Positions 1 through 2,572 of a stretch of DNA of 60,285 bases are shown here, in pieces. The number at the start of each line of letters is the position of its first letter. Position 1 is the stretch's first letter. This DNA is from Spartobacteria bacterium. Lineage in GTDB: Bacteria; Verrucomicrobiota; Verrucomicrobiia; Chthoniobacterales; UBA10450. The translations under genes were made by a program, and so were the position numbers. The DNA lies in NCBI GenBank assembly GCA_003167555.1, contig PMSN01000001.1, forward strand, positions 1-60,285, read 5' to 3'. The notes under the pieces were generated by a model. It did not search any database. It worked only from the letters and a program-made list of their open reading frames with translations, and was not told the DNA's origin.

Positions 1-23
1 CACTTAGTTTGTGAATTCGCGAT

Positions 24-146
24 GCCTAACCAAGCGATGGAGCGAACGACTGGCAGCTTTGGTTCCTCACCATTCATGAAATTCCACCCTCAACCCGCAG
101 CCACGCGCTTTCCCGCCAGCCGTCGCTCATCTTATTCTCGTTAGGC
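24..146 (+). other. attC recombination site 1 (integron cassette site)
   Basis: The 123-bp site opens with GCCTAAC (24-30) and closes with the complementary GTTAGGC (140-146), matching the RYYYAAC/GTTRRRY core boxes of attC sites. Inner boxes also pair: GAGCGAACGACTGGC on the left and GCCAGCCGTCGCTC on the right, with one extra A on the left, which is the kind of extrahelical base integron integrases read in the folded bottom strand. The next gene starts three bases after the site, as in cassette arrays. This attC belongs to a cassette that begins left of the window. Confidence 0.85.
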
Positions 147-148
147 CT

Positions 149-499
149 ATGAAGTCGCTCGATATACTTGCATTTGCCGCGAGCGCGCTGCTTCTCGGAT
201 TCACGTCTTGCGACAAGCGCCCGGCTGCGAAATTTCAGCCGGGCGATAGAGTCAGGGTGAAAGCGACACAGGCTGAAGGCAAGGTGTGCCTCAGGACGAG
301 ATTTTTCCACGAGGATCTTTACTTCCTCACACTTCCCGAGAGTTATTACGTCTTCCATACCATTGGTAAGCGGCAGGAGTGGGCGCGGTTGCGCGCTCTT
401 ACCGAGGCGCAATTAGGGTTCCCCCTTCCCGAATATCGGCCAAGACCATGGCACGAGGAAGGACCGTTTTATGAGTTAGATCTCGAGCTTTCGCGCTAA
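149..499 (+). CDS. Small putative lipoprotein, integron cassette cargo
   Basis: A 116-residue protein that I do not recognise. It begins with a signal peptide ending in a lipobox (LLGFTSC, Cys about residue 21), so it is probably a lipid-anchored envelope protein. After the Cys comes a short charged stretch and a segment reading FQPGDRVRVK, which resembles the first strands of a small SH3-like or KOW-like barrel (inference only). The start at 149 lies three bases after attC 1, and the stop (497-499) lies two bases before attC 2, so the gene fills the cassette almost completely. No promoter space exists, so expression must come from upstream in the array. Confidence 0.75.
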   Translation: MKSLDILAFAASALLLGFTSCDKRPAAKFQPGDRVRVKATQAEGKVCLRTRFFHEDLYFLTLPESYYVFHTIGKRQEWARLRALTEAQLGFPLPEYRPRPWHEEGPFYELDLELSR

Positions 500-501
500 A
501 G

Positions 502-624
502 GCCTAACCAATCGCTGCAGCGAACCGCTGGCCGCTCCGATGCCTCGCATTACATTATGAAAACACATCCATTGCAATCCACGCTCGCTTCCGCCAGCGG
601 TCGCTGAGCTCCGTCTCGTTAGGC
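502..624 (+). other. attC recombination site 2 (integron cassette site)
   Basis: This site is also 123 bp, from GCCTAAC (502-508) to GTTAGGC (618-624). The inner arms CAGCGAACCGCTGGC and GCCAGCGGTCGCTG pair perfectly except for one extra A. Length, outer boxes, inner box layout and the AT-rich middle (both sites carry an ATGAAA stretch) resemble site 1. Such homogeneity within one array is typical of sedentary chromosomal integrons. The site closes the lipoprotein cassette, and the following ATG is at 627. Confidence 0.87.
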
Positions 625-626
625 CC

Positions 627-1046
627 ATGTCGCGTCACCTCGTCATAGCACTGTTTCTGGCAAGCGTTGCGACCGCACAACAGCCGCAGCTGACGATCGC
701 ACCGCACCAGCCGAGTGCAGGCACTGGGTTCGTCGGCGTGGCTGTTTGGCCAAAGCCAGACTTTCGCATCGTCGCTGGCGTACTTCCGAACAGTCCTGCG
801 GCACGAGCCGGAATTCTCGCAGGCGACTATATCTTAGCCATCGATCAGCACTCGACGTCAGAAATGTCGTACGAGGTTTTCTCGGGCTACGCTTGGGCGC
901 CGGCTGGCACTCCCGTCGAACTCACCTTGAAGCGGGCGCAGACGGGCGCGACGGAAACAGTACACTTGGAGCGCGCCGACCCAGCCAGCCTCAACCCGAA
1001 ATACAACGATTGGTCTGCATACCTTCCAGCACTTACTCACGAGTGA
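627..1046 (+). CDS. Secreted PDZ-domain protein, integron cassette cargo
   Basis: A 139-residue protein with an N-terminal signal peptide (MSRHLVIALFLASVATAQ) followed by one PDZ domain at about residues 33-115. The carboxylate-loop region GFVGVAVW, the segment VAGVLPNSPAARAGILAGD and the strand YILAIDQ are the usual PDZ features of HtrA, CtpA and RseP proteins. No protease domain is present, so it probably acts as a stand-alone peptide-binding or adaptor module in the periplasm. It starts two bases after attC 2 and its stop lies four bases before a third attC box, so it is cassette cargo. Confidence 0.78.
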   Translation: MSRHLVIALFLASVATAQQPQLTIAPHQPSAGTGFVGVAVWPKPDFRIVAGVLPNSPAARAGILAGDYILAIDQHSTSEMSYEVFSGYAWAPAGTPVELTLKRAQTGATETVHLERADPASLNPKYNDWSAYLPALTHE

Positions 1047-1050
1047 AAAG

Positions 1051-1058
1051 GCCTAACC
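1051..1058 (+). other. Truncated attC site 3 (left box only)
   Basis: GCCTAACC starts four bases after the stop of the PDZ cassette, exactly where sites 1 and 2 begin. The sequence then departs completely: the expected inner box (AGCGAAC..CTGGC) is absent and no complementary arm plus GTTAGGC follows within normal attC length. I read this as an attC cut by the insertion sequence that follows. Confidence 0.6.
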
Positions 1059-1406
1059 CCTATGTAGGGAGTCAAGCGTGGATGCGGGTGTGGGTTGGTT
1101 TTTAGTTCATTGGTTTGGGTTGTCGTTCGTGGGTTATTGGTATTTTCGGAGCGCTTTTTCTTCCTTTAGCTCGTTGGGATTGTGTTCCAGCGGCTCTTAC
1201 TCCTATCCGTCCCGCAGGCGCGGGACCATTTGATCAATGCGATCGGTGGAAGAGGAACGTGGGTGCGGCCCAATCTAAAGCGTCGAACTAGCAGGGTAGC
1301 CGATCAGGTTAGGCAACGGGCGCGCGCCACGTTCCAAAGTGTGATTTATTTACTTGGGTGTTTTGTGTGGTGGTTGGTTCCTTTCTGTTCCCCTCGAATT
1401 CATTTG
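1058..1406 (-). other. Noncoding end of the insertion sequence; candidate bridge-RNA region
   Basis: I see no convincing gene in these 349 bp. On the element's own strand this stretch lies downstream of the transposase, the position where IS1111-group elements encode their structured guide ('bridge') RNA. A perfect 7-bp hairpin with a four-base loop sits at 1209-1226 (GTCCCGC, AGGC, GCGGGAC). The part near 1080-1170 is unusually rich in G and T on the + strand. That an RNA is made here is inference from the family, not shown by the sequence. Confidence 0.4.
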
Positions 1407-2429
1407 TTAAATGCTCAGACCTAGTTGCTCTGGCTTAAGCTGTCCGGTCCTGATCCGCCACAGATCGACGGCGAGCTGTCTGGCTACGGCCACGATCGCT
1501 TTCTTGCGCGCGGCGCCCGTAGCGAGAGCTCCCTTGGCTAAGACCTGACGCCACTTCACCACAGGTCGGTAATCGGGCTGGAAACGAACCAGTCGCCAGG
1601 CCAGTTCCACTAGGGCCGCTCTCAGTCTTGGGTTGCCGTGCTTGGTTACGCAAGTTTGGAGCCGAGTCTTGCCGCTGCTGTACTCGCCCGAGCATAAACC
1701 GGTGTAGCTGCCCACCTGACGACGGTTGCGAAACCGGCTCCAATTGCCCACTTCCCGGTCGATCACCACACTGGTCATCATCCCAAGTCCGCGCGGTTGC
1801 CCTGGAGCGGCGGCTGCCTGGAATTGGACCGTGAGTGCGCGGATCTTCTCCTCGAGGGCCAGCAGGATCGGCTAAGAGTTTCTAAGCAACTGCTTCATCC
1901 ACTCGGGCACGCAGAGCGCGGCAAAGGCGCGCCGCTTCCACCAGCGCTGGATCGGCTCGATCCCGTGGTTCACCAGCAGACTGCGCCCCTGCGCTTCGAG
2001 TTGCTTGCGCGCTTTGACCAGCTGCTCGCGCTGCCGATGGATCGCGCGCAGTTGTTCTTCCTCCTCGCTCGGCACCCGCACCAAAGCCAGCGCCCCCCGG
2101 TTGCCTTCCACAAACCGATCCAACCTCAAACAGAGCGCCTTGGCATCGAGCCCATCGGTCTTCACCCTCCTATTGCGCTCATCCAGCTTCTGCGGACAGA
2201 CCACGTGACACTCGATCCCGAGCGCCGCCAGCTGCCTTTGCAGTCCAAACCCAAACCCGCACGCCTCGTAGACCGCGTGAATCTCTGCGCCGCTCTTCTG
2301 CTTCAACTTGGCCGCCCAGCACAGAAACGCTTCCTTCTTGAATCTCTGCGCCGGCTTCGGATTGCTCCCTCCCTCTTGGCAAACCACCACGTAAAACTCC
2401 TGGTGCACATCGATTCCGAGCTTGATCAC
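1407..2429 (-). pseudogene. IS110/IS1111-family transposase, interrupted by one in-frame TAG
   Basis: Reading from 2429 the protein has the RuvC-like DEDD domain of IS110 transposases: D7 in GIDVHQ, E55 in AVYEACG, D92 and D95 in KTDGLDAKAL. A coiled-coil segment follows, then codon 186 is TAG (1872-1874). The same frame continues without interruption to 1407 and contains the C-terminal transposase domain with the expected segments GMMTSVVIDREVGNW, RQVGSYTGL and YSSGK (catalytic serine region), then KHGNPRLRAALVELAW. Restoring one codon would give a normal full-length product of 340 residues. A point nonsense mutation has therefore probably inactivated it, unless amber readthrough or a sequencing error applies. 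Confidence 0.85.
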
Positions 2430-2504
2430 CGTCTTGCTCGGATTAAACTCCGAGCGGGTTCCCTCGTGTGAGGGCCACTCTACCTTAATGGTATTATTCT
2501 CATA

Positions 2505-2539
2505 TTGCCGGGTGTAGGTCCCAGACCCGCACCCGGCAA
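2505..2539. repeat. Hairpin at the right end of the insertion sequence
   Basis: TTGCCGGGTG (2505-2514) pairs perfectly with CACCCGGCAA (2530-2539) around a 15-base loop. It overlaps the right copy of the flanking inverted repeat, 75-110 bases upstream of the transposase start on the element's strand. No T-run follows on either strand, so it does not look like a terminator. It may be part of the end structure recognised by the transposase. Confidence 0.5.
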
Positions 2540-2572
2540 CTCCCTCATGTCATCTAGGTGTTCGTCCACGCT

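Follow-up and report, generated by a model that had tools for sequence, protein, structure and literature searches.

The left end of the window, that is, of the whole 60,285-nucleotide contig analyzed here (C8, one of 29 contigs of a 4.2 Mb genome), carries two hairpin-forming repeats packed closely between small genes, which raises the question of whether these repeats are attC sites of an integron, remnants severed from any integrase, or palindromes of some other kind, and what borders them on either side.

The word GCCTAAC occurs in the window at positions 24, 502, and 1051, and the complementary word GTTAGGC at 140, 618, and 1308. The first two pairs delimit two sites of 123 bp each (24–146 and 502–624), both with the bottom (minus) strand as the folded one, scoring 115.6 and 122.8 bits, respectively, with the covariance model introduced below. 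A preliminary description of this DNA had placed two sites of this length at exactly these coordinates, with complementary outer boxes and tightly packed genes, and it was accurate in all these points: the GCCTAAC/GTTAGGC boxes are perfect at both sites, and 2, 2, 2, and 4 bases are left to spare around the genes at 149–499 and 627–1046. Both genes lie on the plus strand. The first one encodes a 116-aa lipoprotein-like protein with no match in Pfam, sharing 37.5% identity, across 120 alignment columns, with the product of the first cassette gene of the integron on contig C18, and the second one encodes a 139-aa PDZ-domain protein (PF17820, E 7e-12). The arrangement of one gene and one attC per cassette in a common orientation is seen in the window (149–624) and in the arrays on C14, C18, and C4. 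The cassette stretch had been drawn over 1–1057; its right limit is the end of the R'' box of a third attC (1051–1057, plus strand), which is cut off there by an IS1111-type element, and its first 21 bases are the end of an insertion sequence rather than cassette sequence. Thus, the attC array described earlier is real, but the two IS elements framing it had been overlooked. For a third attC of 263 bp, the GTTAGGC word at 1308 would have to be the R' box; this reading was rejected, as the word lies inside the non-coding region of the IS1111-type element, where other copies have it too.

Folded as single-stranded DNA, the bottom strands reach −22.6 kcal/mol (24–146) and −28.2 kcal/mol (502–624), with z-scores of −2.6 and −3.3 and with, respectively, four and none of 200 shuffled sequences folding as well, whereas the top strands are weaker (−15.6 and −20.7 kcal/mol). 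The R boxes are paired, the spacers open, and the L stem paired, so the bottom-strand fold suggested earlier as a check does contain the R and L pairing and beats both the top strands and the shuffles. The same architecture emerges from the alignment of the bottom strands of 14 canonical sites of 123–124 bp from the host genome: the RNAalifold consensus consists of an R helix, an open stretch, a long L helix, and two extrahelical positions (columns 104 and 110), with two-sided changes in 10 out of 24 pairs. Paired cells make up 96.4% on these 14 sites, compared with 83.5% in shuffles and 20–46% in slid controls, and the covariation score is 0.348 versus 0.116 (0 out of 500 shuffles). The inner boxes are therefore paired, as had been proposed, but the one extrahelical A of that proposal gives way to two extrahelical positions in the 14-site consensus.

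Long hairpins between closely packed genes might also be palindromic intergenic elements of another kind, such as REP-like repeats or terminators. However, RYYYAAC/GTTRRRY boxes, conserved extrahelical bases, and an open spacer are attC features, the bottom strand folds better than the top one, on both C18 and C14 sites of this type adjoin intI and an attI-like box, and no Rfam family fits (the scan of the first 3 kb of the window yielded nothing relevant); we consider such an origin scarcely conceivable. The stretches 24–146 and 502–624 are genuine attC sites.

A covariance model built from the 14 sites, which replaced an over-strict hand-made finder, yields 26 attC matches with E below 0.01 in the host genome, and many of the further sites elsewhere in it are 123–124 bp long, in line with the expectation of more sites of equal length. 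The profile search for the integrase (TIGR02249), run genome-wide, identifies two full IntI, on C18 and C14 (472 and 465 bits, cut-off 265), no intI on the window contig, which breaks at a repeated IS30 element, and a C-terminal intI fragment on C4. The two full proteins are 66% identical to each other, both keep the catalytic R, K, H, R, H, and Y, and IntI4 (2a3v) aligns with the C18 protein over the full length (E 1e-94); they thus have the hallmarks of integron integrases, the IntI-specific inserted region among them. In both loci intI is divergent from an adjacent attI-like box, cassette, and attC; these boxes, GTTAGAC and GTTAGAT, lie between intI and the first cassette and are judged attI-like from these words. 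The two IntI (L058 6044–7114; L057 9259–10323) represent two Verrucomicrobiota subclades within one genome, each accompanied by a separate attI-like box and the start of an array. The intI fragment on C4 (L053 1195–1863), in turn, has an approximately 280-bp in-frame insert between …ELLGH and KDVSTT…, which holds a small ORF of a GIY-YIG nuclease in another frame (L053 1340–1603).

The window array could be an integrase-less attC cluster (CALIN), that is, a dead remnant severed from any integrase: contig C8 is devoid of intI, many single attC sites are scattered over other contigs (C20, C23, C26), and C4 carries an intI fragment. Yet the left end of C8 is an assembly break at the repeated IS30 element, and hence the absence of intI from this contig says little; moreover, two intact intI genes are present in the genome, and the arrays of both terminate at the same IS30 element. 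IntI can act in trans on distant attC sites. We regard a dead remnant as possible but rather doubtful; on the genome scale, the window attC sites are no orphan cluster. As the contig breaks at a repeated element, the window array is not assignable to one intI locus, and joining C8 to an intI-bearing contig via the IS30 target duplication failed: no flank of the opposite (IRR) side has ATG, and only the ends of C17 and C3 match (CGA). In a sedentary integron, an IntI encoded elsewhere in the genome would act on the folded bottom strands of the near-uniform 123–124 bp attC sites, recombining one with another or with attI, and cassettes, here those of the lipoprotein-like and the PDZ protein, would be gained, lost, and reordered.

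The nearest IntI among named genomes come from Verrucomicrobia soil MAGs. Three named Verrucomicrobia MAGs are at zero distance from genomes of the host family in the IntI tree, and therefore the family belongs to Verrucomicrobiota; the two IntI of the host genome fall in two subclades of this tree. Taking into account the same-length sites, the two full IntI, and this grouping, the earlier proposal of a sedentary chromosomal integron array in a Verrucomicrobiota-like genome is upheld. Matches to the attC model occur in all 83 genomes of the family (a few of them weak), and intI above the curated cut-off in 33 out of 83. Among 195 genomes of the phylum, 20 have matches, with values below 1e-12 only in the three belonging to the family. 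That cassette arrays of this phylum are little described, as had been remarked, is a fair statement, but Verrucomicrobiota already appear among the phyla listed as having integrons (PMC8618304), and the array itself is an ordinary integron of a kind known in this phylum. Integrons are best known from Proteobacteria and from the clinic; with one attC type in every sampled genome of a family of soil MAGs, cassette exchange seems to be a standing feature of the lineage. In a genome of the same genus (G022), contig C54 carries dozens of attC over approximately 47 kb (L263–L265, approximately 1–48 kb), an array that ends in a partial intI, and a genome of the same class (G339) has 13 weak model matches with a regular length of 99–100 bp, probably another integron type.

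The organization resembles that of sedentary chromosomal integrons of the Vibrio superintegron type in that intI is divergent from attI and the cassettes, the attC length is nearly uniform, and the genes are small and of unknown function. It differs in the Verrucomicrobiota host, in two IntI lineages in one genome, and in the dispersal of sites over many contigs, broken up by IS elements. With these elements included, the locus is very likely a sedentary chromosomal integron array that two unrelated insertion sequences use as their favored target.

The element at the right edge is an IS1111-type insertion sequence of the IS110 family (1058–2555, minus strand; the limits are taken from the ends common to other copies, the right one being approximate). 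Its transposase (1407–2429, minus strand) has DEDD and Transposase_20 domains (PF01548, PF02371, NF033542) and is represented by two ORFs, 2429–1872 and 1781–1407, in the same frame with an in-frame stop between them. In IS1111 elements, the non-coding region downstream of the transposase gene is the source of the target-seeking RNA (PMC11187229), and the corresponding region here, approximately 350 bp 3' of the transposase (1058–1406, minus strand), is expected to have this role.

The insertion points are uniform. The left junctions have the form RYYTAAC|CCCTATGTAGGG on C8, C4, C22, C25, and C6 and in another genome of the genus (G021), and the right junctions on C4, C21, and C25 (twice) run on into NNGCGATG, the rest of the attC; at the right flank of the window copy, the attC remainder is no longer visible. 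The ends ATGTAGGGAGT and ACTCCCTACAT form subterminal inverted repeats. Two guide-like words are found on the minus strand of the non-coding region: GGTTAGGC (1307–1314), the reverse complement of R'' plus the next base, and ATGCGAT (1237–1243), which matches the right side of the attC target and is kept in the C25 and G021 copies. GTTAG[GA]C together with ATGCGAT is kept in three out of three complete non-coding regions, namely, those of the window, of the diverged copy on C25, and of G021. Of mononucleotide-shuffled sequences, 1% contain GGTTAGGC considered by itself, and four out of 20,000 contain the pair. Lying between the R'' box and the L'' box, the element splits the attC, and an RNA from its non-coding region with GCCUAACC and AUCGCAU would guide it by matching the target left and right of the cut.

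Insertion sequences targeting attC are already known, and the papers cited for that in PMC12444791 concern IS1111. The IS1111-attC group (Tetu and Holmes, 2008; Post and Hall, 2009, as cited in PMC11187229 and PMC12444791), with ISKpn4 and ISPst6, shares with the window element the IS1111-type transposase, the non-coding region downstream of tnp, the subterminal inverted repeats, and insertion in attC. The window element differs in its Verrucomicrobiota host; its own cut lies just inside the R'' box. It may be regarded as a new element of the IS1111-attC type, with RNA guiding suggested by the guide-like words. Group IIC-attC introns are another mobile class tied to integrons and attC (PMC7923331), but these are retroelements, unlike the IS1111 and IS30 elements considered here.

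At the left edge, positions 1–21 (minus strand) are the IRL-side terminal repeat of an IS30-family element, the rest of which lies left of the contig start and whose transposase reads away from the attC. It is followed by ATG (22–24), presumably the 3-bp target duplication, the other half of which was not found for the window copy. Since the last base of the duplication is the first base of the R'' box, the attC is left complete. The exact 20-mer of this IS30 end occurs eight times in the host genome, each time at a contig end or close to one; the element is collapsed in the host assembly, where copies are visible only as ends, and contig C22 extends past the repeat into the N-terminus of the transposase. 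A complete copy in G021 is approximately 1.09 kb long, with GAT on both sides and imperfect terminal repeats of approximately 25 bp, and its transposase matches HTH_38 (47.8 bits) and rve (32.1 bits, just under the cut-off of 32.6).

Five out of eight IS30 ends in the host genome, as well as the one in G022, sit exactly two bases before an attC, and five opposite (IRR-side) ends lie in cassettes following another attC (C4, C12, C14, C18, and C23). Relatives in other lineages behave similarly: four out of four ends are at attC in another Verrucomicrobiota family (G123, transposase 65% identical; the four junctions have one common triplet and may not be independent), one out of three in a third family (G392), and 10 out of 12 distinct ends, from several records, in ISVvu6/ISVa6-like relatives from Vibrionaceae (transposase 50% identical), in the same register at Vibrio attC; whether a Vibrio, G123, or G392 junction is at attC was decided by inspecting the sequence rather than by the covariance model. 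In the pattern search for IS30 ends, 14-mer matches that lacked a preceding terminal repeat were counted as chance and excluded. Overall, entry at NNR|YYTAAC in a fixed orientation, with the attC whole, is observed at 21 out of 29 distinct junctions in three Verrucomicrobiota families and Vibrio. Relatives at 35–41% identity (G160, G175) do not abut attC. Four of the Vibrio junctions are on NZ_CP016323, a record made largely of cassette genes, and for that reason they are weaker evidence of target choice, but not of the register. The same 40.8-kb "plasmid" record (NZ_CP016323.1, L325) repeats stretches of itself and is possibly part of a Vibrio superintegron that was assembled wrongly.

Adjacency to attC could also arise by hitch-hiking, if one IS30-loaded cassette had been copied by IntI with no target choice by the transposase, and the same triplet and first attC bases at the four G123 junctions, as well as ATG at both C1 and C8, are what such copying would leave. 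By contrast, the host genome shows differing triplets (ATG, GGA, TGG, GCG) along with differing attC sequences and IRR-side flanks, the Vibrio triplets vary as well (GTA, AAA, CGC, GCA, ACA, ATG), and matching 3-bp duplications are present in G021 (GAT) and NZ_CP016323 (AAA). The differing duplicated triplets therefore indicate many insertion events. Furthermore, an R''-like word is kept at insertions outside attC: the eight non-attC targets agree with YYTAAC at 33 out of 48 positions, compared with approximately 15.5 expected (0 out of 200,000 simulations as high). Hitch-hiking thus appears improbable, and the target data favor recognition of the R'' sequence itself by the IS30 element, with attC as its main genomic source.

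The element inserts with a 3-bp duplication and in a fixed orientation, after a cassette gene and ahead of the attC that belongs to it, and, the attC being whole, would become cassette cargo that IntI could move. Judging from the junctions, we consider it probable that there is a widespread "IS30-attC" lineage, ranging from soil Verrucomicrobiota to Vibrio and specialized on the outer edge of attC, which leaves the attC functional so that IntI can carry the IS as cargo. ISVvu6 and ISVa6 of Vibrio resemble the element described here in the transposase (approximately 50% identical), the 25-bp terminal repeats, the 3-bp duplication, and the attC register, and are annotated as IS30-like. In the openly accessible literature, we found no account of attC targeting by them or by other IS30 elements, and the IS30-type element appears not to have been previously recognized as an attC specialist.

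If this is true, integrons are parasitized in a second, independent, and non-destructive way beside that of the IS1111-attC elements: two transposon families would have converged independently on attC, one splitting it and the other sparing it, which would open to testing how parasites of gene exchange choose between damaging the system and riding it. The IS30 target rule is directly testable and helps to explain the fragmented assemblies of such arrays. A second repeat family (CACCTTCAGCAACTTGGGAACG / CCATTAAATCGGGACAACCTCA), probably another mobile element, breaks the assembly at the ends of C5, C10, C12, C15, and C28.
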